DNA from: Solirubrobacterales bacterium
GTDB taxonomy: Bacteria; Actinomycetota; Thermoleophilia; Solirubrobacterales; Solirubrobacteraceae
Assembly: GCA_003134675.1 (NCBI GenBank)
Contig: PLBZ01000033.1
Span: forward strand, 2,815 to 25,917
Length of the DNA: 23,103 nucleotides
Reading direction: 5' to 3'
Made by a program: the position numbers and the translations under genes. The notes beneath the pieces were generated by a model that had not been told where the DNA came from, ran no database searches, and saw only the letters and a list, made by a program, of their open reading frames with translations. Positions 1-23,103 of the stretch are shown here, piece by piece; the first letter of the stretch is position 1; the number at the start of each line of letters is the position of its first letter.

Positions 1-1211
1 TGCTGCCAGTAGAAGCGCGTGCCCGAGGAGAGCCTGAAGCTCGAGTGACTGTCTCCGAGGCGCCAGATGAAGCCGCCGCTGTGGATATCGATGTCATACA
101 GCGTCCAGGTGTTGCGTACCGAGACCAAGACATCGCCCGCGGAGCCCGGATCGGCCGAGTTGAGGTGGGCGTAGTCCCACGGATAGTTACGGGGCACGGG
201 ATTTTTCGATTCGCCCAGGGGGATGTGCCCAAGCGTGTGCCACTCCCACATAACCAGACCCGTCTTGATGTCGATCTCCTGCACCACCGAATCGGTGAGG
301 ACCCCGGCGGAGGGACCGTGCACGCTCGACAAGTTCATGTGGATCGGGTCGAACACGTCGATCCAGGCCGTGCCCTGCGGAGTGAGCCGGACCTCGTGGA
401 GGTCGGCGTGGTAGCCGTTGCCCGCCCTGATCGTCGCGAGGTGCCGGTAGGAGCTGTCGTAGAGGACATCCTCCCCCTCGCCGAAGCCAACCTGGATGAT
501 CCTCCCCTGCCACCAGCTGAGCACGGGTTTGCCCTGGTACTGCTGTACCTGAAAGTTCGTCGCCTGCTCACCGGCTCCGAGCGGGTGAAACCACACGAGG
601 TTCCCGTTCTGTTCGGTGATCATCGGTCCGGGCGCGCCACTGCCCTGATAGGGGGCGAGGAAAAGATCGCCCGGCGCCGCGCCGGGCTTGGCGGGTGTGG
701 TGATCCTCACCGTCGAGGGGGACAGTTCCGGGGCGGAGCTGTAGTGCTGGACCGCATGAGGGTCGCCCGGATTGATCGGGAACTCCTTCTGACTCACGGC
801 GGCCTGATCGGCAATCGTGAAGGTTGTACTCGCTTCTGGAGCGCCCGCGACGCGCGCGTGGACGCTCACGCGCTCCCCGGCGAGAAACGGATGGGTGGGC
901 AGGAAGCTCTCTCCCGTTCCGGTCGAATAGGCCCGCAGGACCCCGGGATGGGAGCCGCTGTGGGAGCCCACCACGTGCACGTTCGACACCTGCGTTCCCG
1001 CGCTACCCAGGAAGCTGATCTGGGTGGAGGGCGAGGCGTCCACAGTCCCGGGCAGTGGTGAGATCGTCACCGGGTTCTGGGCGGCCGCCGCGATCGCACG
1101 ATTGGAGTCGAGGGCGACCGAGGTGGCCGACGATGTGCCACCACACGCGCCCAGCGTCAGCGCAGTCGCCAGCACCACGAGCAGGGCGCCGGTCGCGCCT
1201 CGTACGCTCAT
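1..1211 (-). CDS. Arylsulfotransferase-like lipoprotein (C-terminus beyond window)
   Basis: Probable extracytoplasmic enzyme of the bacterial ASST type, a beta-propeller family that moves sulfate between phenolic compounds without PAPS. 403 codons are visible. Residues 1-23 form a lipoprotein signal with lipobox L20-G-A-C23, so the mature protein should be tethered to the membrane. Residues 60-135 form a small beta domain (SFLGS, GSHSG, AYSTG, AGERV) also present in the 4385-6280 paralogue. The ASST domain follows, with LHE (H272), AHLNSAD (H349) and VSVRNTW (R366). The window ends after Y-W-Q plus two bases CA, matching the WQHD motif of the paralogues. Start: ATG at 1211 with GGAGG (1220-1224 on the plus strand) 8 nt upstream. 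It lies 46 bp behind the MFS-ASST gene, so the two are probably co-transcribed. Family assignment is by motif similarity to its neighbours and general ASST knowledge; the substrate is unknown. Confidence 0.85.
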   Translation of the reverse strand, partial: MSVRGATGALLVVLATALTLGACGGTSSATSVALDSNRAIAAAAQNPVTISPLPGTVDASPSTQISFLGSAGTQVSNVHVVGSHSGSHPGVLRAYSTGTGESFLPTHPFLAGERVSVHARVAGAPEASTTFTIADQAAVSQKEFPINPGDPHAVQHYSSAPELSPSTVRITTPAKPGAAPGDLFLAPYQGSGAPGPMITEQNGNLVWFHPLGAGEQATNFQVQQYQGKPVLSWWQGRIIQVGFGEGEDVLYDSSYRHLATIRAGNGYHADLHEVRLTPQGTAWIDVFDPIHMNLSSVHGPSAGVLTDSVVQEIDIKTGLVMWEWHTLGHIPLGESKNPVPRNYPWDYAHLNSADPGSAGDVLVSVRNTWTLYDIDIHSGGFIWRLGDSHSSFRLSSGTRFYWQ

Positions 1212-1257
1212 CGAGGAACCCTCCACGGGTGCGCTTCATCTGTCGCGAAGTGGATCG

Positions 1258-4206
1258 TCATTGAACCGCTTGCGAGAATATCCGAGAAGCTCCGAGCACC
1301 CGGCCATCGGCGGTGAGTGCCTCGATCTTGAAGCTCTTATAGCTCCGTGACATCGGAATCGCCGTCTCGAACCCGGACTTGGTTGTGGTTGCCACAACGC
1401 TCAGCTTGCCGGTGCCTGGTCCCGCGAGGACCCTCCAAGACACCACCTGGGTGGCTCCGTTCCAGCTCGCGTACACCGTGGTCTTGCCGCCCGTCTGCAG
1501 GGCCTCGCCCGCGGGCGAGGAAAGCGGCTCACCGACCCACTGCTCGAGCGTCGCCCGGTAGGTGAGGTCGGGCCCCGGGAGCTCTCCTCCGAACAGCAGC
1601 TTGCCCGATCGGCTGTACTCGGAGAAGGACGGTTCCGATCCCCAGCCGACGAACACGTTGCCGTTCGGCAGGGGCTCCGTGTTGCCCATGTATTCGGATT
1701 TGAACTTGCCGTCGCCGCTGTACTGGGCAACGAGCGTCGCCGTGTGTGCGCTTTGGTCCAATTTGAGCACGAGCCCGCGAGATCGTCCGGTAGCCGGGAC
1801 GGAGGTGCCCCCGCCGGTCAGCTGGCAACAGTGATCGTCGAACATGCTGACCGTCGAGCCGTTCTTGAGCCTCGCGTCGTGCTGCCACTGGAAGGCCGCA
1901 CCCGGGCCGAACTTGAAGCTCGAGCGCTTGCCGCCGAGGATCCACTCGATCCTGCCGGTGTCGATGTCGACCAGGTAGGCGCCCCACGTGTTGCGCATCG
2001 AGACGAGGAACTTTTCGTTGCCGGTCAGGTCGATCGCGTTGACGTGGTAGGCGTCCCAGGGAAACCCGTTGGTCGGCAGCGAGGCCTGGGACTGGCTCAG
2101 CGGAATGTGATCGAGCGCGTCCCAGTTGCGCACGAGCTTGCCGGTCTTGAGGTTGTACTCCTGGACCGCCGAGTCGACCAGCGCGCCGTTGTAGGCGCCT
2201 CCGTACTTGGAGAGGTCCATCGGGATGTTCTTGTTCGCGGTGACCCAGGCGTCTTCTCCGTCGATCGCAAGCTCGTGGACCGTGAGGACCCAGCCGCCCG
2301 TCGCTTTGAGCCTCGCGACCGTCCGGTAGTGCTGATCGACCACCACGTATTCGCCGCTTTCCGTCGCGCCCGTGTTCGTCACACGGCCCTGCCACCAGGC
2401 CAGTGCCGGCTTGCCCTCGTATGTCTGCAGGCTGAGGTTGACGGCGGCAACCCGCTTGGGCACGGGCTGGAACCAGACCGGCTGCAGGCCGCGGTCGAGG
2501 ATCAGCGGCCCGCTCTGTCCGATGATCGGCGGTTCGTTCAGGTTGTAGAAGTTCGTCGTGAATATGTAGCCTGGCGCCAGCTGTCCCGCGGGCGCCCGCT
2601 GCAGGCTGCGGATGATGGGCGGGTGAAGCGACGGCGCGCTGAGGTAGCTGTAGGCGCCGCTGGTCGTGTAGTCGCCGATCGGAGCGGCGTGAGAGCCGGC
2701 GAACGCGACGGTGAGCCCGACGAAGCATGCGAGCACCACACCGATCGCGAGCGCAAAGCGCCGGGCTGCCCCCGCCAACGCGGTGTCGGGCTTGGGCACC
2801 GAGGTGAACGTCATGAGCGCCGCAGCCGCAGCTAGGCAGGCGCAGATCAGGTAGGCGAGCCGAAAGCCGGCGGTCAACGCCTGCGCTACCTGCTGCCCCG
2901 AGCCGATCAGATGGGTCGTGCGCTGCGTGGCGAGCGTGATCAGGACCGCGAGCCCGAGACCGCCACCCACCTGGCGCGAGGTGTTCACGAGACCCGACGC
3001 GAGTCCGGCCTGCCCCGCCTTGGCGCCCTGGGTGGCGGCGATCGTCGAGGGCACGATCGACATCGCGATCCCCGCCGCGGTGAGGATCCCGGGGATCATC
3101 ACGTACACGATCGCGCTGCCGCTGGATCCGATCCGCGTGAACAGCAGGAGTCCGGCGCTCAACATGAGCAGCCCGCCGCCGAGCACGGGGCGCACACCGA
3201 AGCGGCCCACGAGCTTGCCGGCGCGCGAGGCGACGAGCAGGATCGTCAACGACATCGGCAGGAACACCAACCCTGCGTGCAGCGGCGAGAGCCCCAGCAC
3301 TTGCTGCATGTACAGCGAGCTCACGAACCACATCGGGAACAGCGCCGCGCTGAACAGCAACACGATCGTGTTGGCGGTTCGCAACGGTTTTGTGAGCTCC
3401 TTGAAGGGGATCAGCGGCGCGGACGCCACACGCGCCTCGATCACGCCGAACATTCCGAGCAAGACCACGCCGAGAATGATCGGGCCGAGCGCGGCAAAGG
3501 TGTCCCAGCCCTTGAGGCCCGCTTCGACGACCCCGAACACCAACACCATCTGGCCGATGGTCAGGGTCAGCGCACCGGCAAGGTCGAAGCCTTCGCGTGC
3601 TCTGCGACGCTCGCTCACGACCGCGTAAGCCACCAGCGCCGCCCCGATCGCAATCGGAGGGTTGATCAGCAGGACCCAGCGCCAGCTGAGCACTTCGGTG
3701 ATGATCCCTCCGAACAGCATGCCGGCAGCGCCCCCAAGTCCGTTCATCGCCGCCCATGTGGCGATCGCGCGGTGGAGCTTGGGGCCGGGCGGAAACGACG
3801 CGGTGATGATCGCCAGCGAGGTCGCGGCCATCAGCGCGCCGGCGAGGCCCTGCACTGCGCGCGCGACGACGAGCACCACCTGGTCGGGCGCAGCGCCCCC
3901 GGCGAGCGAGGCGAGCCCGAACAGGATCAGCCCGGCGACGAGCGTTCGGCGCTGCCCGAAATGATCGGCCGCGCGACCGCCGAGCATCAGGAAGCCTGCG
4001 AACGTGATCACGTACGCGTCGACGACCCATTGCAGGTCGGGCGAGGAGAAGCCGAGGCTCGATTGGATCCTGGGCAGCGCGACGTTGACGATGCTCAGAT
4101 CGAGGATGACCATGAACTGGGCCACACAGCACACAGCCAGCAGCCACGCCGAACGCCTGTTAGGGTGCGCTTCCGAGCCCTCTAACGACAATTGGAGCCC
4201 GGCCAT
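1258..4206 (-). CDS. MFS transporter (DHA2-type) fused to arylsulfotransferase-like domain
   Basis: 982 residues in two parts. Residues 20-467 are a 14-helix DHA2 drug/proton antiporter: TM1 motif FMVILDLSIVNVALP (31-45), motif A GGRAADHFGQRR (76-87), and motif C region GGAAGMLFGG through WRWVLLINPP (158-184). After residue 470 comes RRF followed by a 15th hydrophobic segment (484-504) that looks like the signal sequence of a secreted protein. Residues 540-982 are an ASST-like domain with HEL (H644), YHVNAID (H721), SMRNTW (R738), WQHD (H776) and a C-terminal SWNGAT beta module (914-919). The extra helix would put the ASST domain outside. The N-terminal beta domain of the other two paralogues is missing, replaced by the transporter. 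ATG 4206 gives a normal MFS N-terminus. The frame stays open upstream to 4362, but that part is antisense to a lipoprotein gene. No clear SD is seen, so the start is moderately certain. Confidence 0.88.
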   Translation of the reverse strand: MAGLQLSLEGSEAHPNRRSAWLLAVCCVAQFMVILDLSIVNVALPRIQSSLGFSSPDLQWVVDAYVITFAGFLMLGGRAADHFGQRRTLVAGLILFGLASLAGGAAPDQVVLVVARAVQGLAGALMAATSLAIITASFPPGPKLHRAIATWAAMNGLGGAAGMLFGGIITEVLSWRWVLLINPPIAIGAALVAYAVVSERRRAREGFDLAGALTLTIGQMVLVFGVVEAGLKGWDTFAALGPIILGVVLLGMFGVIEARVASAPLIPFKELTKPLRTANTIVLLFSAALFPMWFVSSLYMQQVLGLSPLHAGLVFLPMSLTILLVASRAGKLVGRFGVRPVLGGGLLMLSAGLLLFTRIGSSGSAIVYVMIPGILTAAGIAMSIVPSTIAATQGAKAGQAGLASGLVNTSRQVGGGLGLAVLITLATQRTTHLIGSGQQVAQALTAGFRLAYLICACLAAAAALMTFTSVPKPDTALAGAARRFALAIGVVLACFVGLTVAFAGSHAAPIGDYTTSGAYSYLSAPSLHPPIIRSLQRAPAGQLAPGYIFTTNFYNLNEPPIIGQSGPLILDRGLQPVWFQPVPKRVAAVNLSLQTYEGKPALAWWQGRVTNTGATESGEYVVVDQHYRTVARLKATGGWVLTVHELAIDGEDAWVTANKNIPMDLSKYGGAYNGALVDSAVQEYNLKTGKLVRNWDALDHIPLSQSQASLPTNGFPWDAYHVNAIDLTGNEKFLVSMRNTWGAYLVDIDTGRIEWILGGKRSSFKFGPGAAFQWQHDARLKNGSTVSMFDDHCCQLTGGGTSVPATGRSRGLVLKLDQSAHTATLVAQYSGDGKFKSEYMGNTEPLPNGNVFVGWGSEPSFSEYSRSGKLLFGGELPGPDLTYRATLEQWVGEPLSSPAGEALQTGGKTTVYASWNGATQVVSWRVLAGPGTGKLSVVATTTKSGFETAIPMSRSYKSFKIEALTADGRVLGASRIFSQAVQ

Positions 4207-4375
4207 GAAGAGAACGCCACTGACCTCGATCCTAACGCTAGTGGCTGTTCTGGCGAGCACTGTCGCAGTGGCGGGGTGCGGCGGCAAAGGGGTGAGCTCC
4301 TCCGCCAAGCCGACGACGAGCAGTACCCCCACAACCACGACGACGACGAAGCACAAGTCCAAACCGGCCTACTGA
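4205..4375 (+). CDS. Small lipoprotein of unknown function
   Basis: A 56-residue protein: basic MKR start, hydrophobic stretch, then lipobox V22-A-G-C25 and a Ser/Thr-rich tail containing TTTTTT and ending KHKSKPAY. This is the classic layout of a small actinobacterial lipoprotein with a disordered linker and no folded domain. ATG 4205 is preceded by GGAG (4192-4195) with a good spacing. Its ATG overlaps the opposing ATG of the MFS-ASST gene within one CATG (4204-4207), so each promoter would lie in the other coding region. Its stop is 9 bp from the stop of the convergent ASST gene at 4385. No homologous family is recognised. The lipobox and SD support it as a real gene; the head-to-head overlap argues for caution. 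Confidence 0.6.
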   Translation: MKRTPLTSILTLVAVLASTVAVAGCGGKGVSSSAKPTTSSTPTTTTTTKHKSKPAY

Positions 4376-4384
4376 GCCGCCGGT

Positions 4385-6280
4385 TCATCGGAGCGAGGCG
4401 GCATAGCTGATCACGCGAACGGTCTGCGAGATGCCGAGCACATGCCCGGATGAGTCGAGCGCCTGCACCGCAACGTAGGCGTGCTTCTGAGGCAGGGTCG
4501 TCGAGCTCTCAAAGCCACCGACCCCGATCTTGGTCTGCGCCTTCAGCGATTTAGGGTGCTCGCCCGCGAGCACGCGCCACCAGGCCACCTCGGTCGCGCC
4601 GTTCCAGCTCGCGTGCACGATCGTCTCTTCGCTCGTGTCGTTCAGGCCGGCGAGGACCACGGGCGGGCTCAGCGGGCGACCGCTCCAGGGGAAGCGGAAG
4701 GCCCGGTAGAAGGACATGTCGAACGGCTGATGGGCGTCGAAGAGCAGCGAGCCACCCTTGGTGTACTCGCTGATCGCGGGCACCCCGCCGTAGCCCACGA
4801 GGGTGTTCCCGTCCGCCAGCGTCTGCATGTTGCCCTGGCTCGAGACAAGCAGCGGCGGGTTGCGGTGTGTATAGACGGAGGCGAGGTGCGCTCGACGGGC
4901 CTTGAAGTCAAGCTTGATCCGCACGGCACGCGACTGGTGGTGGATCGGGGGGTTCGAGCCGTTGTCGAAGAAGGTGAGCTCCCCGTCGGAGAGGACGCGG
5001 CCGTCGTGTTGCCAGGCCATCCTCGTGCCCGGCCCCATCTTGAAGGAGCTCTTGTTGCCGCCCAGGCGCCAGAGAACCTTGCCGGTGCCGCCCTCGAGCT
5101 GATAGCCGGCCCAGGTGCTGCGCGCCGAGATCAGGATGTTGCCGTGTGGATTAATGCCCGCCCCCCCCAAGTCGATCGAGTTGAGGTGGAAATAATCCCA
5201 AGGCGTCGCGTCCGTCGGCGTCTCGACTTCGGACTCCGAAGCGCCGATGTGATCGAGGCTGTGCCATTCCCAGCGCACAAGGCCTGTCTTGATATCGATC
5301 TGCTGGATCGCCGTGTCGACGATCGTCCCACCCGAGGAGCCCTCGATCGAGGAGAGGTCGCAGCGGATCGGGTTGAACGCGGTGATGTAGGCGATGTCGT
5401 GAGACGCGATCTGGAAGTCGTGCAGGTCGGCCTTCAGGCCGTTGCCGCCGGAGATCCTCGCAACGGTCTGGTAGTGGGAGTTCATGACGATGTCTTCGCC
5501 CTGACCGAAGCCCAGCGAGAGCACACGCCCCTTCCACCACGTCAGGTCGCGCTGGCCTTCATATGTCTGCTCGCTCAGATTCTCCGCCGTTTCGTCCCCC
5601 CCCAGCTCCTCGAACCAGACGAGTCGGCCCCGCGGCGTGTAGATCAGCGGCCCGTACTGACCCGGGCCGGGGCCGTTAGTCGTGAGGATGTCGCCGGCAG
5701 CGGGATCGCGATCCGGCACGGTGACGGTCAGGACCGGGGCCTGGACGCCGGGCAGGGTATAGAAGCTCTGATAGTCGGCGGGCGCCGCCCGCGGGTTGGG
5801 GAACTCCGAAATGCTTGCCGTCGGATATGGAGTATCGACGCGAAACCGAAAGGCGACCCGCTTGCCGCCGTTGCTGGAGCCGACCACGGCGCGCACGTCG
5901 ACGCGCTCGCCGGCATCGAATGGGGTGTCGGGCGCGAAGCTTGCGCCGCCACCCTGCGAGTAGGCGTGGAGGCGGCCGGCGTGACGGCCGCTGTGTTCGC
6001 CCACGACTGAGATCTCGCGGATCTCCGTGGCCGGCACACCCAGGAAGCTGATCTGCGCGCGCGGGTTCGCCGTGTCGGTTCCCGGTGCCGGCGAGACATC
6101 GACCGAGGTGCCGGGGAGCCTCGCGTCGTGTTCCAGGGTGGCCGGCAGGCAGGAGGGGGACTTGCCGCTTTGTGACACTTCGCTATGCGAGCCGGGTAGG
6201 ACCCCGGTACTCAACACCACAACGACGACGATCAACGCGACGAAGCCGACCAGCAGGACGATGAGGCCGTTCCGTTTCAT
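4385..6280 (-). CDS. Membrane-anchored arylsulfotransferase-like protein
   Basis: 631 residues. One N-terminal helix (5-25, very Val/Leu-rich, no lipobox, no AxA cleavage site) acts as a signal anchor, leaving the rest outside the membrane. Residues 74-150 form the small beta domain shared with the 1-1211 lipoprotein. Residues about 185-540 form the ASST-like propeller domain, with LHDF (H287), YFHLNSID (H365), ISARSTW (R387) and WQHD (H425). The order His-His-Arg-His recalls the catalytic set of E. coli AssT, but exact equivalence is inferred. A C-terminal beta module has VHASWNGATEVAWWRVLAG (555-573). It is the first gene of the three-ASST minus-strand series. The start ATG 6280 has only a weak SD and overlaps (ATGA) the stop of a possible 28-codon upstream ORF. 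Substrate unknown. Confidence 0.85.
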   Translation of the reverse strand: MKRNGLIVLLVGFVALIVVVVVLSTGVLPGSHSEVSQSGKSPSCLPATLEHDARLPGTSVDVSPAPGTDTANPRAQISFLGVPATEIREISVVGEHSGRHAGRLHAYSQGGGASFAPDTPFDAGERVDVRAVVGSSNGGKRVAFRFRVDTPYPTASISEFPNPRAAPADYQSFYTLPGVQAPVLTVTVPDRDPAAGDILTTNGPGPGQYGPLIYTPRGRLVWFEELGGDETAENLSEQTYEGQRDLTWWKGRVLSLGFGQGEDIVMNSHYQTVARISGGNGLKADLHDFQIASHDIAYITAFNPIRCDLSSIEGSSGGTIVDTAIQQIDIKTGLVRWEWHSLDHIGASESEVETPTDATPWDYFHLNSIDLGGAGINPHGNILISARSTWAGYQLEGGTGKVLWRLGGNKSSFKMGPGTRMAWQHDGRVLSDGELTFFDNGSNPPIHHQSRAVRIKLDFKARRAHLASVYTHRNPPLLVSSQGNMQTLADGNTLVGYGGVPAISEYTKGGSLLFDAHQPFDMSFYRAFRFPWSGRPLSPPVVLAGLNDTSEETIVHASWNGATEVAWWRVLAGEHPKSLKAQTKIGVGGFESSTTLPQKHAYVAVQALDSSGHVLGISQTVRVISYAASLR

Positions 6281-7516: not shown

Positions 7517-8203
7517 ATGGGCAAAGCATCGATCTCCATCCTCGCAACGGCTCTAGCCGTTGCGCTCGCGCCCACACCGGCACTCGCCAGGTCGGGGGAC
7601 GTCGCCGCGACGAAGGCGTACATACAAGCCGACTACGCGTTGGTGCACACAGCGAGGATCAACATGCGGACCGGCGAAGCGGCCCTGGAAACCCTCCGAC
7701 AAACACTCAGTGCCGAATGTCCCGGAGCAGCCGCAGCATCGCCTGAGAATGAAGCCGCCGAACATCTCAGCAAGGAGGTGATCGGCGCGATGTCGATCGT
7801 CTTCATCCGCTCCGACGTCCAAGCGGTCGCCAGCTTCGCCAACGCAGTCGAGCGCTTGCACTGGAGCAACCACAAGCTCACACACAAGGTTGTTTCCTAC
7901 GCATCCAAGCTCCAAGCGCTCGCCACGCTTGCGATGCCCGATGTGTGCGGCGATTTGAAAGCGTGGGCAGCCAGCGGCTATAAAACACAGCCCCCGAGCA
8001 CCACACAATTCGACCGGTACTTCACCGCCGAGGACGTGGGAATCGGAGAAGTACCCGCGCGCCTGCTCGCCCCTTACGAGCATTCTGCCGAGCGGGCGCT
8101 CCTGCGGCGCACCACACAGTTCGAAAACGAACTGGTCGACGCGGAAGCCAGGGCCGTCGAACCGTGGTCGAAGATCCTCGACGCGCTCAAACTGCAGCCG
8201 TAA
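7517..8203 (+). CDS. Secreted protein of unknown function
   Basis: 228 residues. A Sec signal peptide (1-24) ends in A-L-A before R25, so the mature protein is probably exported. The rest is mostly helical in appearance, with two cysteines (C68, C144) that could form a disulfide, and an E/A/R-rich C-terminal helix (about 185-225). No enzyme motif or known domain is recognised. ATG 7517 has no SD, but a CATACT hexamer at 7505-7510 sits where a -10 box would make the transcript leaderless; this is tentative. It is divergent from the CurA-like reductase. The stop is 87 bp before the chosen start of the repair gene alkA. Confidence 0.75.
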   Translation: MGKASISILATALAVALAPTPALARSGDVAATKAYIQADYALVHTARINMRTGEAALETLRQTLSAECPGAAAASPENEAAEHLSKEVIGAMSIVFIRSDVQAVASFANAVERLHWSNHKLTHKVVSYASKLQALATLAMPDVCGDLKAWAASGYKTQPPSTTQFDRYFTAEDVGIGEVPARLLAPYEHSAERALLRRTTQFENELVDAEARAVEPWSKILDALKLQP

Positions 8204-8290
8204 CTGGACCGGAAGCACCGACGGATCGTCGGGTTTGGTCAGGTCCGATTCCCGCCAGACATACCCGTCCGCGTGTGTCACTGTCTTGCT

Positions 8291-9796
8291 GTGATCTTCG
8301 ATTCGGAGCGTTTCTGGCAGGTGCTCGAGCTTGGCGATCCGCGCTTTGACGGCTGGGTCTTCTGCGGTGTGAAGAGCACCTGGATCTACTGCCGTCCGAG
8401 CTGTCCCGCCCGCACGCCCAAACGCGAGAACGTACGCTTCTTTGCGACCGCTGCAGCGGCGCAGTCCGCGGGCTTCCGAGCGTGCAAGCGCTGTCGTCCT
8501 GACGCGACGCCGGGCTCTCCGGATTGGGATCTTCGCGCGGATCTCGTCGGACGCGCGATGCGCCTGATCGCCGACGGCGTGGTCGATCGCGAAGGCGTTG
8601 GTGGCCTCGCCGGACGCCTCGGTTACACCGAGCGCCACGTGTATCGCCAGCTCATGGCCGTGGTAGGCGCGGGACCGCTCGCGCTCGCGCGTGCCCAGCG
8701 CGCCCAGACTGCTCGGATCTTGCTCGAGACGACGGTCGTGCCGATCACCGGCGTGGCGTTCGCCGCAGGCTTTCAGAGCGTGCGGCAGTTCAACGCGACC
8801 GTCCAGGAGGTCTTTGCGATGACGCCGAGCGATCTGCGCAGGCGGGGGCGGAGAGGAGACCTCTCCGAGGAGAGCGGGGCGCTGTCGCTGCGCCTCCCCT
8901 ACCGCTCCCCGCTGGACGGGCAAGGCCTGATGGCGTTCCTGAGACTTCGTATCGTGCCCGGCGTCGAGGAGGTTCAGGGTGGCGCCTACCGGCGAAGCCT
9001 CCGTTTGCCGCACGGCACCGGTGCAGTCGAGCTGCGTCCCGCCGAGGGGTACGTGCACGCCCGCTATTGGCTTTCTGATCTGCGAGATCTTGCCGCGGCG
9101 ATGCAGCGCTCGCGGACGCTGCTCGACCTCAATTCTGATCCACTCAGCGTGACGGAGGCGCTGGGTGATGACGCGCTGATCGGAGCGCTCGTGCGCCAGA
9201 CCCCGGGGCGCCGGGTGGCAGGCCACGTCGATCCTCATGAGCTCGCCATCCGCGCAGTGCTTGGTCAACAGGTCTCGCTGCGAGGCGCCTCGACACTTGC
9301 CGGCCGTCTGGTGGCCTCCTATGGCGAGCAGCTCAAGCGGTCGCTCGGCGCGGTGACGCACGTGTTTCCATCCGTGGAGGCGCTGGCCGAGGCAGACCCC
9401 GATCGGCTGGCGATGCCGAGCGCCCGTCGGCGTGGCCTACTTGCCCTGGCCAGGGCGCTTGCGCGCGATGAGATCGCGCTTGACGCCGGAGCAGATCGTA
9501 AGGACGCCCGGCGTCGGCTGCTGGCTCTACCCGGGATCGGGCCCTGGACCGCCGAGTACATAGCGATGCGCGCGCTGCGCGATCCCGACGCCTTTCTGCC
9601 GAGCGATCTCGGCGTCCGCCATGCACTCGAGCGGCTCGGCCACGATGGTCGGCCTGCAGCGGCTGAGCGGGAGGCACAGCGCTGGCGCCCGTACCGCGCA
9701 TATGCCCTCCAGTACCTGTGGGCTTCGCTCGATCCACCCGCACGAGCTAAGAGTGCTCCGCGCACTGCCGACGATGCCGACAGGCTTGCTGCGTGA
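8291..9796 (+). CDS. alkA: Ada-type methylphosphotriester sensor / AlkA DNA-3-methyladenine glycosylase fusion
   Basis: 501 residues from GTG 8291. Residues 1-75 form the Ada zinc domain with C34, C38, C65 and C68 (YCRPSC...ACKRC), which in Ada proteins accepts a methyl from DNA phosphotriesters and switches on transcription. Residues 82-185 are an AraC-type helix-turn-helix region with the FAAGFQSVRQFN motif. Residues 198-310 match AlkA_N. Residues 315-480 form the HhH-GPD glycosylase domain with LPGIGPWTAEYIAMR (413-427) and the catalytic Asp D439 in PSDLG. The protein both senses alkylation damage and excises alkylated bases. The same fusion followed by ogt is known in mycobacteria. The start at 8291 fits the family N-terminus (21 residues up to RFDG); an in-frame GTG at 8273 is the alternative. 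Neither has a clear SD. Its stop is 8 bp before ogt. Confidence 0.95.
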   Translation: MIFDSERFWQVLELGDPRFDGWVFCGVKSTWIYCRPSCPARTPKRENVRFFATAAAAQSAGFRACKRCRPDATPGSPDWDLRADLVGRAMRLIADGVVDREGVGGLAGRLGYTERHVYRQLMAVVGAGPLALARAQRAQTARILLETTVVPITGVAFAAGFQSVRQFNATVQEVFAMTPSDLRRRGRRGDLSEESGALSLRLPYRSPLDGQGLMAFLRLRIVPGVEEVQGGAYRRSLRLPHGTGAVELRPAEGYVHARYWLSDLRDLAAAMQRSRTLLDLNSDPLSVTEALGDDALIGALVRQTPGRRVAGHVDPHELAIRAVLGQQVSLRGASTLAGRLVASYGEQLKRSLGAVTHVFPSVEALAEADPDRLAMPSARRRGLLALARALARDEIALDAGADRKDARRRLLALPGIGPWTAEYIAMRALRDPDAFLPSDLGVRHALERLGHDGRPAAAEREAQRWRPYRAYALQYLWASLDPPARAKSAPRTADDADRLAA

Positions 9797-9804
9797 GGAG
9801 CGCG

Positions 9805-10317
9805 ATGGACCTCATGCTGTACACCACCCTCGACAGTCCAATCGGAGAGCTGCTGCTGCTCGGCGACGATCGAGCCCTGCATGGCCTCTACATGCAGGAG
9901 GGGCGCAAGCCGGTGAGGATCGCTGCGAGATGGGAGCGGTCCGCGCAGCCGTTTGCGCAAGTGCGAACGCAACTCCAGGAGTACTTCGCGGGTGAGCGCA
10001 TCACCTTCGATGTGCCTCTCGTCATGAAAGGCACCCCGTTCGAGCGCCGGGTCTGGCAGGCGCTGCGAGATATTCCCTACGGGAACACCGTCAGCTACGG
10101 CGAGATAGCGCACCGCGTCGGCCAACCTTCGGCGGCACGAGCCGTGGGCCTCGCCAACGGACGCAATCCAATCGCTGTGATCGTCCCATGCCATCGTGTG
10201 ATCGGCGCGAACGGAACACTCACCGGCTACGGCGGCGGGTTGGAGCGCAAGCGGCAGCTGCTCGAGCTCGAGGGTGGACAGACAGTGCTCGACCGCTTTG
10301 GTGGCTGTGTGCTCTAG
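9805..10317 (+). CDS. ogt: Methylated-DNA-[protein]-cysteine S-methyltransferase
   Basis: 170 residues. Suicide repair enzyme that removes methyl or alkyl groups from O6 of guanine onto its own cysteine. The active-site motif IVPCHRVIG is present with C129, preceded by the DNA-binding segment VSYGEIAHRVGQPSAARAVG (96-115) and NPIAV. ATG 9805 is preceded by GAGGAG (9795-9800), whose first bases lie within the alkA stop codon (9794-9796), so the two are probably co-transcribed and translationally coupled. A GTG at 9793 in the same frame is a less likely start. Ogt here supplies the methyltransferase activity missing from the Ada-AlkA fusion. Its TAG stop shares the four bases CTAG with the stop of the convergent permease gene. 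Confidence 0.97.
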   Translation: MDLMLYTTLDSPIGELLLLGDDRALHGLYMQEGRKPVRIAARWERSAQPFAQVRTQLQEYFAGERITFDVPLVMKGTPFERRVWQALRDIPYGNTVSYGEIAHRVGQPSAARAVGLANGRNPIAVIVPCHRVIGANGTLTGYGGGLERKRQLLELEGGQTVLDRFGGCVL

Positions 10318-11923: not shown

Positions 11924-12416
11924 CCTGTTCCTCGCCGGCCCCCTCGAGCTTGCGCCCGGTCTTGGCCAGGAAGACATCGTCGAGCGAGGGCTGATGCAGC
12001 TGTAGCGACGCGACCTTCAGGTGGGCTTGGTCAAGCGCGCGAACGACCTCCGCGAGCTGGGCCTCGCCCCCGGGCAGCTGTACCATGACAGCGCCACGGC
12101 CGTTGCGCGCGAGGGTTCCGAAGGCGGCGAGCGTCTCGGCGAGAACCTCAGCGGCGCTCTCCTCGGCGGGGACGACCTCGACGCTTGGGCTGCCGATCTC
12201 CCCCTTCAGCTGCGCCGGTGTGCCCTCGGCGACGATCTTGCCGTGGTCGATGATCCCGACGCGGTCGGCCAGCGCGTCCGCCTCCTCGAGGTACTGCGTG
12301 GTCAGGAACACCGTCATGCCCTCCTCGTGAGCGAGCCGCCCGACCTCCTCCCAGAGCGCGCTGCGGCTCTGCAGGTCAAGGCCCGTCGTCGGCTCGTCGA
12401 GGATGCAAAGGGGGGG
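11913..12416 (-). pseudogene. ABC transporter ATPase, N-terminal half removed by element insertion
   Basis: The C-terminal part of a DrrA-like exporter ATPase. Reading in from the break, the frame shows PPLCILDEPTTGLD (Walker B and D-loop), LQSRSALWEE, then TVFLTTQYLEEADALADRV with a Gln (TTQ) at the H-loop position as in DrrA-type proteins, DHGKIVAEGTP, and a C-terminal regulatory domain ending QPSLDDVFLAKTGRKLEG. Walker A, Q-loop and the LSGGQ signature, which should lie upstream, are absent; instead the serine integrase gene begins at 12438. The frame stays nominally open into the integrase, but the encoded residues stop resembling an ATPase about where the G-run 12410-12416 lies. An internal ATG at 12317 would give only a 134-residue fragment without nucleotide-binding ability. 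The missing half is not found elsewhere in the window. Confidence 0.85.
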
Positions 12417-12425
12417 TTGGAAAGG
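12405..12425. other. Probable attachment-site junction (attL-like) of the integrated element
   Basis: Left of this point the minus strand encodes ABC ATPase; right of it lies the start of an outward-unrelated serine integrase gene, whose SD (AAAGGAG) begins at 12421. Recombinases of this type cross over at a short core next to their own gene, so the crossover should be within or beside the G-run at 12410-12416. The exact core cannot be fixed without the other end or an uninserted relative. Confidence 0.55.
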
Positions 12426-12437
12426 AGCGCGTACCTC

Positions 12438-13958
12438 ATGGGCGTGCAGAGCATAAGCAAGAAGAAGGGCCTGGGTGCCGAGGCAACTGCCGACGCAACT
12501 GGTGTGATCGACGCGGTGATCTATGGCCGGGCGTCGAAGGACCGGCTGCGGTTGATGCGTTCGATCGGCGATCAGATCGCTGATTGCCGGACGTGGTGTG
12601 AGCCGTTGGGGTGGCGGGTGGTGGACGTCATCACCGACGCGAATCGTTCGGCATCGCAGTGGCGGCGTAAGGAGCGGGAGGGGTTCGAGGAGGCCCTGGG
12701 CTTGATCGAGTCGGGGCGGATTCAGGGGTTTGTGACCTGGGAGCCCTCACGGGCGGGTCGTGACCTGGCGATCTATGTTCAGCTGCGGGCGGCGTGCCAG
12801 CGATTTGGGGTGCTGTATCTGACGCAGGGGCGGGTCTACGACTTCTCCCGCCCGGATGACAGTTTCATGATGGGTTTTGAGTTCCTGCGGGCCGAGGCGG
12901 ACGCGAACACGATGCGCGAGCGGCAGTTGCGCACGGCGCGGCGGAACGCGGAGAAGGGCCGCCCGCACGGCCGGCTGGCGTATGGGTATCGGCGTGTGTA
13001 TGACGAGCGGACCGGGGTGCTCGTTCGCCAGGAGCCCGACCCGCATACCGGCCAGATCGTCAGGGACGCGGCCAGGGACGTGCTGGCGGGAGCGAGCATG
13101 TGGTCAGTTGCGATGCGGTTGCAGGACGCGGGTGAGCCGACGCCGATGCGCCCCTGGTCCGAGCATCCGCGCGGGTGGGATACCTACACGATCCGGCATC
13201 TGCTGCAAAACCCGACGATCGCGGGCAAGCGTGTGTACCGCGGGCAGGTGATCGGCGATGCTGCCTGGGAGCCGCTGATCAGTTGGGAGGACTTCCAGAA
13301 GCTCCAGCGTCTGTTCGCTGATCCTGGTCGCAGGGTCAGGGGCGGGGGTGGGATGCCGGCGAAGACGCTGATGGTCCATATCGCCCGCTGCCATTACTGC
13401 GGGCGGCCGTTGAAGCGGGCGGTGATGCGACGGAAGAACAAGGCCGACGCGGTGAAGTACCACTGCCAGTTCCGAGGGTGCTACAAGACGACGATCTCTC
13501 AGCCCGGCCTCGACGCCTATGTGCAGGAGGTCGCGTTGGCGTGGTTTGAGCGGCCGGCGAACCTGGCCCGGCTGACCGCGACCGACGGCGACGGCGACGG
13601 GTGGCTCGATCACGCTCACGCGGTCGAGGAGGAGTTGGCTTCTCTACAGCAGCGGTTGGATGAGGCGGCTGACCGCTACGCGGCTGGCGATCTGCCGGTC
13701 TCGATGTTGAGCAGGATCGAGCAGCAGTTGCGGCCGAAAATCGAGCAGGCGCAGCGTGCTTTGGTCCCGCCGATCAGCGACGAGAACATCCGTGCCCTGG
13801 TCAGTGCCGGCGACGTGCGGGCGGCATGGGCCGAGTTGGCGCTGGCGGAGCAGCGCAAGATCGTCAAGGCCGTCTTCGACGTGCGGGTGCAGCGGACCGC
13901 CAACCGGGGCCAGAACGCCTTTGAGCCTGAGCGAGTCCTCGTTGCGCCACGGGTCTGA
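12438..13958 (+). CDS. Large serine recombinase / integrase
   Basis: 506 residues. Catalyses site-specific integration and, usually with a directionality factor, excision of the element. The N-terminal resolvase domain (about 25-165) has Y29-G-R-A-S33 with the nucleophile S33, SIGDQ (42-46), and SRAGRD (104-109) in place of the common SR-SRD block. The recombinase domain (about 175-300) has GRLAYGYRRV and LLQNPTIAGKRVYRG. A zinc ribbon has C318, C321, C343 and C348. A coiled-coil stretch (about 395-445) is followed by a C-terminal tail. ATG 12438 is preceded by AAAGGAG (12421-12427) with 10 nt spacing. The frame is open further upstream only as antisense to the ABC ATPase. The gene sits beside the ATPase break, as expected for an integrase next to its attachment site. 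No excision factor is recognised in the window. Confidence 0.95.
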   Translation: MGVQSISKKKGLGAEATADATGVIDAVIYGRASKDRLRLMRSIGDQIADCRTWCEPLGWRVVDVITDANRSASQWRRKEREGFEEALGLIESGRIQGFVTWEPSRAGRDLAIYVQLRAACQRFGVLYLTQGRVYDFSRPDDSFMMGFEFLRAEADANTMRERQLRTARRNAEKGRPHGRLAYGYRRVYDERTGVLVRQEPDPHTGQIVRDAARDVLAGASMWSVAMRLQDAGEPTPMRPWSEHPRGWDTYTIRHLLQNPTIAGKRVYRGQVIGDAAWEPLISWEDFQKLQRLFADPGRRVRGGGGMPAKTLMVHIARCHYCGRPLKRAVMRRKNKADAVKYHCQFRGCYKTTISQPGLDAYVQEVALAWFERPANLARLTATDGDGDGWLDHAHAVEEELASLQQRLDEAADRYAAGDLPVSMLSRIEQQLRPKIEQAQRALVPPISDENIRALVSAGDVRAAWAELALAEQRKIVKAVFDVRVQRTANRGQNAFEPERVLVAPRV

Positions 13959-19122: not shown

Positions 19123-22100
19123 CTAGAGGCTCACGCCGGGCGTCTTGCGCGGCTGGCGTGCCTGGCGTGCGGCGGGGACGAAGCTCGGTGGCGTTGGGCG
19201 CTCGGCTGGCGCCGGCGCGGCGGGAGGCGGATGCTGGGCGTGGAGCGTCTGCACGGTGAGCCGGGCCTCGAGCGGCTCCTCTGGTGGGTCCTTGAGGCCC
19301 GGTTCGGTGTCGTCGTTGAGTTCGGCGAGCTGCGCCTCGACGTCGGCGAGGTGCCGCTCGGCGTCGTGGAGGGTCTCGGTGTGGCGGAATGGCTGGCCGA
19401 TGCGCTGGCCGGCGTCGGCAACGGTCTGTTGCGCGGCGGCCAGGTCTTCGCGGGCGCCAGCGAGCAGGGTGGGGATGCCGGAGACGCGGTTCTCGATGCG
19501 TTGGACGAGCCCGACCTGGCCGTCGAGCAGAGTGTCGCTGTCGATCCTGAAGGTGCTGCGGGGTACGCCGTCGAGCGTGATCTCGGCTTCCAGGCCGCCC
19601 ATGCCGGGGCGCACAGCGAGCTGGATGTCAAAGCCGCTGATCTGGCCGATCGGCCCGTAGTCGCGCTTGGTGTAGCGCGGCGCCGACTTCAGGCCCGTGC
19701 TGTTCGCCCAGCGCGCGAGCGCGGCTGCGGCCTGCACGCGCGAGTCGTAGCTGCGGTCGTGGAGCTGGATGGCGAAGCGCTCGCCGCTGGTGTCGATCAC
19801 CCGCGGCAGCGCGGCCTCCAGGCCGGCGATCTGGTCGCTGGCGCGCTCGGCGGCGTGTTGAGCTTCGCGTCGAGTGTGGGTGAGCATGTGCTCGTTGCGC
19901 TGGTAGGCGCGCTCCAGCCGCCGCAGCCGCGTGACCTCGTTGGAGAGCGTGGAGTGCTCCAAGAGCAAGGGGTTGCCGGATGAGATGGCCTTGGCCTCTG
20001 CCGCGGAGAGTGCGCTGGAGTCGATCTCCTCGATCTCGCGGCTGTCGAGCCGGCCGCGCATGAGCTGCGCGATGAACGTCGCCTTGCGCTCGACGCCCTG
20101 CCACATGTAGCTGTCGAAGGACCGCTCGGTGACGAACCGTACGATCGCGACCTCCGGGTTCTGGTTGCCCTGCCGCATGATCCTGCCCTCGCGTTGCGCG
20201 ATGTCGGAGGGCCGCCACGGGCAGTCCAGGTGATACAGAGCGACGGCGCGGGCTTGGACGTTGGTGCCGACGCCCATCTTCTGAGTGCTGCCGATCAGCA
20301 CCGCGATGTGCCCGGCGCGCGCGGCGGCGAACATGCGGGCCTTCTCGACGTCGGTCTTGGCTTCGTGCATGAAGCGGACGCGCTCGCCGGGCATCCCGCG
20401 GGCGACGAGTTGCAGGTGCAGCTCGTCGTAGGCGTTCCAGCGATCCGGGTTCGGCGTGCCGATGTCAGAGAACACCAGCTGCAGCGCCCCGCAGATCGGT
20501 GAGGGCTCGCCGGTGATCGTGTCGAGGTACTCGTTGTTGCGCGTTTGCTCCCAGACTCGGTGGATCGCGTCGGCGGCGGCGTCGACCTTCGTCGGGCCGG
20601 ACGGGCCGTCCGCGAGGACCATGCGGATGTCCAGGGCGGCCTTGCGGCCGTCGGTGGAGATCGTGAGCATGTTGTCCTCACTCGGGTTGACCCGCTTGGC
20701 CGCGACCGCCTCGGCGCGCTCGCCGAGGTCCTCGATGAACTGCTCCAGCTCGACGGTCGGCTGCACCGCGACCGTGGCGGGAGCGCGCTGCCCGTCCTCG
20801 CGCACAGCCAAATCCGGGGTGGGTAGGCGCAGGTCGGCGGCGGTCTTCACGTCGGCGAACACGGACCACATGCGCAGCATCTCGGGGACGTTTGAGAACT
20901 TCGCGAACCGGGTCTTCATGCGGAAGCTGCTGTTGCCGGCCGGGGCCATCTCCATCTGCGTGACGGTCTGCCCGAACGTGGCGGCCCAGGCGTCGAACGC
21001 GCCGATCCCGGCGTTCTCCAACAGGTCGGGACGTAGGTAGCGCTGCATCACGTACGCCTCGGTCACGCTGTTCGCGATCGGCGTCGCGGTGGCGCCGGTG
21101 ACTACCCGCTCGCGGCCTTCCGAGCGCAGGTACTCCAGCTTCATGTGCAGGTCTGAGGCGCGCTCGGAGCCCTCGATCGCGGCGTCGCGGATGTTGGAGT
21201 CGGTGGCGAGGTTCTTGTACATGTGCAGCTCGTCGACGATCACGTAGTCGATCCCGGTGTCCTCGAAGTAGACGCCGCGGTCGCGGGCCTGGTCGGTACG
21301 GGTCTTGACCTTGTTCTCCAGCGCGAGCAGCTTGCGCTCGATCCGCTTGACGCTCATCCGCTGCTCGCCCTTGGCGTCGTGAAGCACCCGCCGCACGTCA
21401 TCCACCTGTCCTTGGATGTAGGCGGCCTGGGTCTCGGCGCGCAGCGGGATCTTCGCGAACGCACCCTGGGTCATCACGATCGCGTCCCACTCGTTCGCGG
21501 CGACGCGCGCGACGAGGAGCCGGCGCTTCTCGGCGGTGAGATCTTGGCTTGAGGCGGCGAGGATGCGCGCCCGCGGGTAGATCTGCAACCACTCCCGGCC
21601 GAACTGCTCCAGCATGTGATTCGGCACGACGACCACGGGCTTTGCGATGAGTCCCATGCGGCGCATCTCCATCGCGCCGATGATCATCTCGGCGGTCTTG
21701 CCGGCGCCGACGTCGTGGAACAGGCCGGCGGCGGGCTCGGCGATCATCCGCGCGACCGCTGCCCGCTGATGTTCCCTGGGGGTGAAGCTGGCGGCCATGC
21801 CGGGCAGTGACAGGTACTCCCCGGCGCCGGTGTAGTCGCGTAGCACGATGCTGTTGAACCGGCGGTTGTACTCGTCAACCAGTGCCTTCGCGCGGGCGGG
21901 GTCCTCCCATACCCACTCGCCGAAGCGCTCCTGGAGGGCGTCGGCCTTCTCCTGCGCGGCGGTCGTCTCGATCGGGTTCAGCACGCGGCGGGTTTTGCCG
22001 TCGGTGTCCTCGTACTCGTCGTAGACCAACAGCGTGCGCTGCTCCATCAGCGCCTGGGCGATATCGGGAGCCGGCCGTCGTGCGGTGCCCCACTCCGAGG

Positions 22101-23067
22101 TGGACAGGATGCCTCCCCGGCCGCCGCGGACCTCCCACATGCCCGCCAGCGGGTTCTCCACCCGCACCTCCTCGGAGCGCAGCAGCTCACACAGGAACTC
22201 CTCGTGAACCTGCTCGCTGATCCATACCGCGCCGAGCCGGGCCGCGATATCCTCCACGCCCAGGTCGGCCGGGAGCACGTCGGTGAGCGCGTCGACGTTG
22301 GCCTGGAATGTCGGGTCCTGCGCCGCGCGGGCGCGGGCGCTCTGGAGCTTGGCGCGCACGTCACCGGACAGGTAGGCGGGAGCGTGTACGAGCTCGCCGC
22401 TGTCAGGGTCGGTGAACACCATCCCGGCCAGCGCGGCGCGGGCCTCGGGCTCTCCCATTCCGAGCAGGTCGGCGACCAGCGGCAGGTCGATGCGGCCGAT
22501 GCGGTCCAGGCTGACCGCGATCGCGTCCGCCGGGCTCTCCACGCCCTGAACCTCGGCTCGGGGTGCGACGACGCGGCGGGTCATGATCGCCGCCGGCAGC
22601 GCGGTCTGGTCTTCCTCGTCGAACTGCTCCAACGCCAGCACCAGCGGCCCGAACGGGTCGGCCCGCAACAGCCGGATCGGCGTTGGCGCGACCCGCGCGT
22701 AGGTCGGCTCGCCCGTGTCGTTGGTGCGGCCGGTCGGCCGCAGCCTGTAGCGATTCAACGGCCCGTGCGCCCCGACGTAGCGCTGGTAGTCACGCATCAG
22801 CGACGCGCGCGCGGCGGTGATCTCCTCGGTGTCATCCACGCTCGCCGCCTCCAGACCCAGCAGCCGGGTGGCGTCGTCGCGCAGCCCCAATAGGGCGCGC
22901 AGCTCGCGCGCAGCCGACTTTGGGACCTGGAGCCGCTCCAGCTCGCCTGCGGCGACCGTAGCGAAGCCGCCGCCCTGCGCGACGACGATCGTGCCGTCCC
23001 ACCGCTCCGGCGGCGAGGGCGTGAGCGCCGCGCGGCGTGCCTCTTGACCCGGCGTCCGCTCGCTCAT
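19123..23067 (-). CDS. Large SNF2/DEAD-type helicase of mobile elements (N12-class methylase/helicase family)
   Basis: 1314 residues from ATG 23067 (GAGGGG 6 nt upstream). SF2 helicase motifs in order: FTPREHQRAAVARM (Q-like), FHDVGAGKTAEMI with GAGKT at about 454-458 (Walker A), VDELHMYKN at about 611-619 (Walker B, DELH), TGATATPIAN at about 657 (motif III) and QREGRIMRQGN at about 958 (motif VI). The N-terminal region with DYQRYVGAHGPLN matches the segment between methylase and helicase in COG4646-type proteins of conjugative elements and large plasmids. The C-terminal 300 residues contain a coiled coil (LSNEVTRLRRLERAYQRN), a beta domain and a Pro-rich tail. A role in element DNA processing or protection is inferred. 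No methylase motif is inside this frame. The frame remains open to the window edge, so an earlier start is possible. Confidence 0.9.
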   Translation of the reverse strand: MSERTPGQEARRAALTPSPPERWDGTIVVAQGGGFATVAAGELERLQVPKSAARELRALLGLRDDATRLLGLEAASVDDTEEITAARASLMRDYQRYVGAHGPLNRYRLRPTGRTNDTGEPTYARVAPTPIRLLRADPFGPLVLALEQFDEEDQTALPAAIMTRRVVAPRAEVQGVESPADAIAVSLDRIGRIDLPLVADLLGMGEPEARAALAGMVFTDPDSGELVHAPAYLSGDVRAKLQSARARAAQDPTFQANVDALTDVLPADLGVEDIAARLGAVWISEQVHEEFLCELLRSEEVRVENPLAGMWEVRGGRGGILSTSEWGTARRPAPDIAQALMEQRTLLVYDEYEDTDGKTRRVLNPIETTAAQEKADALQERFGEWVWEDPARAKALVDEYNRRFNSIVLRDYTGAGEYLSLPGMAASFTPREHQRAAVARMIAEPAAGLFHDVGAGKTAEMIIGAMEMRRMGLIAKPVVVVPNHMLEQFGREWLQIYPRARILAASSQDLTAEKRRLLVARVAANEWDAIVMTQGAFAKIPLRAETQAAYIQGQVDDVRRVLHDAKGEQRMSVKRIERKLLALENKVKTRTDQARDRGVYFEDTGIDYVIVDELHMYKNLATDSNIRDAAIEGSERASDLHMKLEYLRSEGRERVVTGATATPIANSVTEAYVMQRYLRPDLLENAGIGAFDAWAATFGQTVTQMEMAPAGNSSFRMKTRFAKFSNVPEMLRMWSVFADVKTAADLRLPTPDLAVREDGQRAPATVAVQPTVELEQFIEDLGERAEAVAAKRVNPSEDNMLTISTDGRKAALDIRMVLADGPSGPTKVDAAADAIHRVWEQTRNNEYLDTITGEPSPICGALQLVFSDIGTPNPDRWNAYDELHLQLVARGMPGERVRFMHEAKTDVEKARMFAAARAGHIAVLIGSTQKMGVGTNVQARAVALYHLDCPWRPSDIAQREGRIMRQGNQNPEVAIVRFVTERSFDSYMWQGVERKATFIAQLMRGRLDSREIEEIDSSALSAAEAKAISSGNPLLLEHSTLSNEVTRLRRLERAYQRNEHMLTHTRREAQHAAERASDQIAGLEAALPRVIDTSGERFAIQLHDRSYDSRVQAAAALARWANSTGLKSAPRYTKRDYGPIGQISGFDIQLAVRPGMGGLEAEITLDGVPRSTFRIDSDTLLDGQVGLVQRIENRVSGIPTLLAGAREDLAAAQQTVADAGQRIGQPFRHTETLHDAERHLADVEAQLAELNDDTEPGLKDPPEEPLEARLTVQTLHAQHPPPAAPAPAERPTPPSFVPAARQARQPRKTPGVSL

Positions 23068-23103
23068 CACCAGCCCCTCACGGCGGGTGGCCAGGGTGAT
23101 CCG
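23066..23103 (-). CDS. Possible 3' end of an upstream gene (partial)
   Basis: In another minus-strand frame a TGA at 23066-23068 overlaps the helicase ATG as TGATG, and the 12 codons before it are open to the edge (ending AVRGW). This would fit an upstream gene, for example a separate methylase partner, translationally coupled to the helicase. Too short to test. Confidence 0.3.

Follow-up and report, generated by a model that had tools for sequence, protein, structure and literature searches.

A DHA2-type transporter fused to an arylsulfotransferase-like enzyme: a possible membrane station of a two-step sulfate relay

In the two-step sulfation of caprazamycin, the type III polyketide synthase (PKS) Cpz6 produces triketide pyrones, the PAPS-dependent Cpz8 sulfates them and Cpz4 takes the sulfated pyrone esters as donors in the last step, as described in PMC4257720, PMC4924298 and PMC5916927. 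Cpz4 is reported to be an active enzyme, with an antibiotic's sugar hydroxyl as the group it sulfates, and the residue that becomes sulfated in the ping-pong mechanism of E. coli ASST to be His436 (PMC13426309). According to the same source, no natural substrate is known for ASTs in general, those of the PAPS-independent arylsulfotransferases being largely unknown (PMC13426309). The supply of donors to enzymes outside the cell is an open question. A type III PKS and a PAPS sulfotransferase are also described for the adipostatins, where they yield a sulfated end product (PMC12135136).

Two-step sulfation, DHA2 pumps and ASSTs are already known, and a fusion of such a pump (MFS) with an ASST was not found described in the open PMC literature, searched at the level of listings. 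In the same literature 9KF4 gave no match and Arylsulfotran_2 led to one plant review. The fusion considered here lies in a stretch of 23,103 nucleotides, which was analysed as a whole and is called the window below. As in the Cpz6-Cpz8-Cpz4 system, the same three kinds of enzymes are linked in the window's relatives, and by sequence and by fold the nearest solved structures to the ASST part of the fusion are those of Cpz4 (35% identical, rmsd 1.9-2.0). Unlike in that system, a 15th helix joins the Cpz4-like enzyme to an MFS exporter in one protein, and no antibiotic cluster was recognised around the fusion. With respect to EfpA, EmrB and QacA, which are 14-helix DHA2 MFS pumps, the fusion has an extra helix and, probably, an enzyme outside the cell. 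Its parts are the following:

1258..4206, minus strand: MFS-ASST fusion gene, 982 aa (translation, Pfam domains, homologues)
2797..4164, minus strand: DHA2-type MFS part, residues 15-470, 14 helices
2704..2784, minus strand: predicted 15th membrane helix, residues 475-501, basic residues at the cytoplasmic side (model, charge counts)
1267..2664, minus strand: ASST beta-propeller part, residues 515-980, Cpz4-like

The original prediction was that a complete 14-helix DHA2 transporter runs without a stop into an ASST-like domain, and it proposed a domain search of the product. Translation of the frame from 4206 to 1258 on the minus strand gave 982 residues and no internal stop; in the list of open reading frames the open frame starts upstream, at a TTG at 4362. 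In Pfam, MFS_1 (residues 27-418, E 1.5e-49) is followed in this one product by Arylsulfotran_2 (PF14269, residues 594-872, E 3.9e-42), and PF05935 also matches residues 676-861. Both ASST matches are above the curated cut-offs (PF14269, 145.1 bits against 27; PF05935, 52.3 bits against 24.2). In NCBIfam the first half of the fusion resembles efflux pumps of the EmrB, LmrA and TcmA type, with the best 25 of 37 matches all under the curated cut-offs. The 14 helices of the transporter were found within residues 15-469 of the structural model described below which, together with the MFS_1 match, agrees with the predicted DHA2 architecture.

A protein search with the fusion returned 2609 matches (E < = 0.001) among 7995 scored candidates. 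Both PF07690 and PF14269 were present in 120 out of 120 of the matches listed (the best 120 of 2609), one of which is the window's own and the others 79-88% identical to it; hence the homologues listed are fused, and the case that they always occur as two separate genes, which would have refuted the fusion, was not what we observed. Near-full-length fusions were detected in 28 of the 146 genomes of the family (the window's own included), belonging to three genera; a single TAG is reported for two of these rows (G088 and G101), in both at the end of the frame. A pattern scan of one genome per species, over 84,980 species, gave 41 loci. In 34 of them both parts are in one open frame, while the other seven are two pieces at contig ends and five lone transporters. 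The loci include records titled Acidimicrobiales, Nocardiopsaceae and others, and one contig-edge ASST piece comes from a record titled Chlamydiae. The soil origin of the fusion carriers was likewise judged from record titles. The loci of the scan and the genomes of the family overlap (L013 and L069 contain one identical sequence, and L017 and L062 another), so that the two sets are not independent. With a threshold of E < = 1e-180, the fusion was detected in 9 of 299 genomes evenly sampled from the class, among which are the window's own and one that belongs to a different family of the order and has only a piece. Of 396 genomes evenly sampled from the phylum it was detected in 1, the window's own. 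It is, therefore, rare outside its home lineages. A frameshift or a chimeric assembly was discarded as an explanation because both domains recur across many homologues and genomes. The single open frame, the two Pfam domains and the conservation in homologues confirm that the fusion of the original prediction is real, a conserved gene whose distribution is limited.

In the MFS part, D36, D81, R86, R116, Q119 and G120 are invariant in 64 out of 64 fusions. We take these to be motif residues of proton antiporters, and their conservation fits, as expected from sequence, a working antiporter.

The topology was evaluated on an AlphaFold2 model of the fusion built from 64 sequences (pLDDT 83.2, pTM 0.77). 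The model contains 15 membrane-length helical segments, if two segments are taken as one helix where DSSP breaks, with the predicted helix 15 at residues 475-501 and beta strands after it, which agrees with the additional helix that had been proposed between the two parts. Taking the N-terminus as inside, the inner loops contain on average 21.7 K+R over the 64 sequences and the outer loops 4.9, and the inner loops have the higher number in every one of the 64. In the loop ahead of helix 15 the mean is 3.25, versus 0.92 in the 25 residues beyond. The hydrophobic segment had been placed at residues 482-504 and preceded by RR: its core is at about 484-502, and RR is present in the window's protein and is not kept across the 64 sequences, in which the constant feature is at least one K or R immediately ahead of the helix (64/64). 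Mean identity is lowest in the linker with helix 15, where it is 59.2%, compared with 81.4% in the MFS part and 71.8% in the ASST part.

The enzyme part has three free-standing relatives, L021, L064 and L065 (53-56% identical to it), which start with a signal-peptide-like segment at the position of the fusion's helix 15. After this segment they have a stretch like IGAFTTKGAWSF, the counterpart of IGDYTTSGAYSY in the window's fusion. The resemblance of this segment to an export signal in the free enzymes supports an enzyme outside, whichever form came first, and, together with the charge distribution, it predicts an extracytoplasmic site for the ASST part, which is probably outside the cell as had been suggested.

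For the catalytic residues we used a profile of 21 ASST sequences, which was aligned to E. coli ASST (3elq). The match over the whole sequence is weak (profile E 0.00064); the counterparts that the alignment gives are the following:

1879..1881, minus strand: H776, equivalent of His436 (the sulfated histidine) of E. coli ASST
2038..2046, minus strand: H721-V-N723, equivalents of His356 and Asn358
1993..1995, minus strand: R738, equivalent of Arg374

H721, N723, R738 and H776 are invariant in all the 64 fusions and in all the 21 rows of the profile, and H644 and H700 are likewise invariant in 64 out of 64 fusions. His252 of E. coli ASST is not covered by the alignment and Thr501 is left without a match; our guess is that H644 is the counterpart of His252. 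The likeness to E. coli ASST (3ELQ, PF05935) consists of the four residues first named, while the difference is that the fusion has a transporter and no N-terminal beta domain.

Two vicinal cysteines, C793 and C794, follow the catalytic QHD in a DDxCC motif and are invariant in the 64 fusions. DDxCC is also present in the free short enzymes L021, L064 and L065, and it is absent in Cpz4 and in the two paralogues that were compared. In the window, two ASST paralogues flank the fusion:

4385..6280, minus strand: upstream ASST paralogue, 631 aa, whose propeller is preceded by an N-terminal helix and by beta strands (PF14269, model)
3..1226, minus strand: downstream ASST paralogue, interrupted by a run of N at the edge of the window; its signal looks lipoprotein-like by eye (PF14269)

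The run of N, which the downstream paralogue (the third ASST gene) enters at window positions 1-3, is in contig C37 near the window start. Both neighbours are only distantly related to the enzyme part of the fusion, with 39-43% identity. That the ASST part could be a close copy of them was rejected, as the 26 paralogues sampled group together on one side of the tree.

It had also been proposed that, compared with the two neighbours, the small N-terminal beta domain was replaced by the transporter. Beta strands do precede the propeller in the one neighbour that was modelled. Nevertheless, this idea is weakened by the closest free enzymes, which are short. In L021, L064 and L065 the signal runs directly into the propeller, and the Cpz4 crystal structure aligns from its residue 51 onward, so it is more likely that the transporter was joined to a short enzyme. 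A quick tree nests the free short enzymes among the fusions; a single clade of fusions is not rejected (AU p 0.464) and the careful tree is compatible with either order. Helix 15 could be an old signal peptide or the free enzymes could have been released from a fusion, and the tree is compatible with both.

The same parts can stand together fused or unfused, because three genomes of the window's genus (G105, G100 and G092, corresponding to L054-L056), in which no fusion was detected, keep a lone MFS gene set between ASST genes. The lone MFS proteins are about 59% identical to the MFS part of the fusion and, in a tree with nine lone transporters, their group adjoins the fusions (SH-aLRT 94 for the joint branch). 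In G100 only, where the lone MFS has one ASST gene on either side, Sulfotransfer_4 and type III PKS genes follow in the same stretch.

These two genes are also those which recur beside the fusion. When the neighbouring frames of the loci were clustered, one cluster besides that of the ASSTs comprised ten loci, with frames of 233-268 residues, and the three members scanned were Sulfotransfer_4 (PF17784). With BLAST, 12 of the 34 fusion loci had Sulfotransfer_4 in the flank that was fetched, whereas none was found for the other 22, some of which had short flanks. In nine loci (L026, L029-L033, L036, L037 and L040) it is the same-strand gene directly upstream of the fusion. In five of these cases its stop shares 4 bases with a possible start codon; the gap is four bases in two, and 111 and 127 bases in the other two. 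Its best PDB match is 9kf1, which we take to be Cpz8 from the neighbouring entry number, and the next is SgdX2. In L013 and L017 a type III PKS is beside Sulfotransfer_4.

Over the family, Sulfotransfer_4 was detected in 47 and the PKS domain in 39 of the 146 genomes. Sulfotransfer_4 is present in 25 of the 28 fusion genomes versus 22 of the 118 others (Fisher p 2.9e-12) and type III PKS in 17 of 28 versus 22 of 118 (p 2.2e-5), with kinship ignored in both tests. In all the 17 fusion genomes bearing it, a PKS match lies within 4 kb of a Sulfotransfer_4 match, while over the family 25 of 43 PKS matches are within 4 kb of one. Among the 25 genomes counted of genus g17, 5 of 6 fusion genomes have Sulfotransfer_4, and 4 of the remaining 19 (p 0.012). 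A post hoc grouping, partly based on match ranges alone, counts genomes that have a free short enzyme or a fusion split between contigs with the fusion genomes; the values then become 9 of 11 versus 0 of 14 (p 2.7e-5). Neither family had a match in the window's own assembly, which is 67% complete. The own assembly, G061 and G093 are the three fusion genomes (out of 28) in which Sulfotransfer_4 is absent, whereas type III PKS is absent in 11 of 28, including all six of g17. Both families are present in 8 of the 118 genomes without a full-length fusion row. Besides the ASST cluster, 11 neighbour clusters recur in at least three loci; in the nine of them that were annotated, no acceptor pathway was evident beyond the sulfotransferase and the PKS. 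Several ASST paralogues are beside the fusion in many loci.

At L011:8895-10583 (plus strand), one frame of 562 aa combines a second Sulfotransfer_4 with a type III PKS. The same single frame probably occurs in G086, G088, G089, G098, G109 and G111 since there both families match frames of equal length at neighbouring places.

We propose, with slightly less than even confidence, that the fusion is the membrane station of a two-step, trans-membrane sulfate relay. The sulfotransferase that depends on PAPS (Sulfotransfer_4) would load sulfate, in the cytoplasm, on a small carrier, which we infer to be phenol-like and which would be made, in many lineages, by the adjoining type III PKS. The charged carrier should not pass the membrane by itself and would be the cargo of the MFS part, exported, in the direction that we presume, via the proton antiport of its family. 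The ASST part, kept outside by helix 15, would take the sulfate onto H776 and hand it to a putative extracellular or envelope acceptor. The partner genes would then be expected in the window's own species too. Somewhat more tentatively, this single polypeptide could be a dedicated trans-membrane sulfate relay, in which an activated sulfate carrier is exported and, coupled to this, used on the outer side. What sequence and prediction back of this scheme is the fusion itself, the likely outside position of the enzyme, the catalytic and antiport residues, the kinship with Cpz4 and the linkage in relatives.

Several observations argue against the relay. The p-values above ignore kinship, and the partner genes are missing in the 67% complete own assembly and in part of the other fusion genomes; Sulfotransfer_4 was not found beside 22 of the 34 fusions, in flanks of which some are short, and both families also occur together in 8 genomes without the fusion. 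DHA2 pumps carry many cargoes and nothing ties the pump of the fusion to aryl sulfates; two further residues of E. coli ASST, His252 and Thr501, have no match in the alignment. A type III PKS with a PAPS sulfotransferase can, moreover, simply make a sulfated end product, as described in PMC12135136.

This last point leads to the main rival, which is in essence the idea of the original prediction, namely that the protein exports a phenolic compound and modifies it on exit. The cargo of the MFS part would be the acceptor, or a sulfated polyketide already completed, which the ASST part outside would sulfate or re-sulfate, with the aryl sulfate donor leaving by another route. DHA2 transporters do export metabolites, as is familiar for the family. 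Both the sugar hydroxyl of an antibiotic sulfated by Cpz4 (PMC13426309) and the sulfated end product of a PKS-sulfotransferase pair (PMC12135136) could be read in this way. However, the closest gene linkage of the fusion is with a sulfotransferase of the donor-making type, and the nine annotated neighbour clusters contain no evident acceptor pathway. Acceptor export is still one option, and we consider it unlikely; it is because of the gene context in relatives that we favour an exported sulfated carrier as the donor.

Still less probable, in our opinion, is a role in detoxification or scavenging, in which the outer enzyme would shift sulfate among environmental phenols and the pump would expel those that enter, so that two stress functions are simply co-located. 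A drug-type pump and the several ASST paralogues alongside it in many loci are what one would expect in such a case, and for ASTs in general PMC13426309 gives no known natural substrate; the linkage with Sulfotransfer_4 and type III PKS would, though, be left unexplained. Finally, the ASST part could be a propeller without catalytic activity that the pump uses as an outer cap or a binding domain, since beta-propellers in general often are binding modules. This is very improbable, given that H644, H700, H721, N723, R738 and H776 are invariant in 64 out of 64 fusions and that Cpz4, at 35% identity and an rmsd of 1.9-2.0, is an active enzyme (PMC13426309).

If the relay is true, it would supply the donor and explain how extracellular or envelope targets are sulfated while PAPS stays inside, and it would offer a means of access to sulfation outside the cell with no PAPS there. 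As the fusion and genes of the donor-making type adjoin in relatives, the questions of the substrate and of the donor route can be tested with one small gene set.

Other features were found in the window. A small frame is head to head with the fusion:

4205..4375, plus strand: small lipoprotein-like frame, 56 aa, whose start codon overlaps that of the fusion (list of open reading frames)

Similar small frames, many of them with PAY or GY at the end, are present in 25 of 37 loci, as selected with a loose lipobox pattern and by eye. A secreted-looking protein of about 230 aa is encoded near ASST arrays in the window (7517-8203, plus strand; matched by eye) and at L006:4957-5649 (minus), L027:4806-5498 (minus) and L034:10930-11607 (plus); the two copies scanned had no Pfam match. 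The window also contains a serine recombinase (12042-13958, plus strand) and a large helicase-type protein (19123-23070, minus strand), which perhaps represent a mobile element beside the region. At 8273-10317, on the plus strand, two consecutive repair genes are of the Ada/AlkA type and of the 6-O-methylguanine methyltransferase type.
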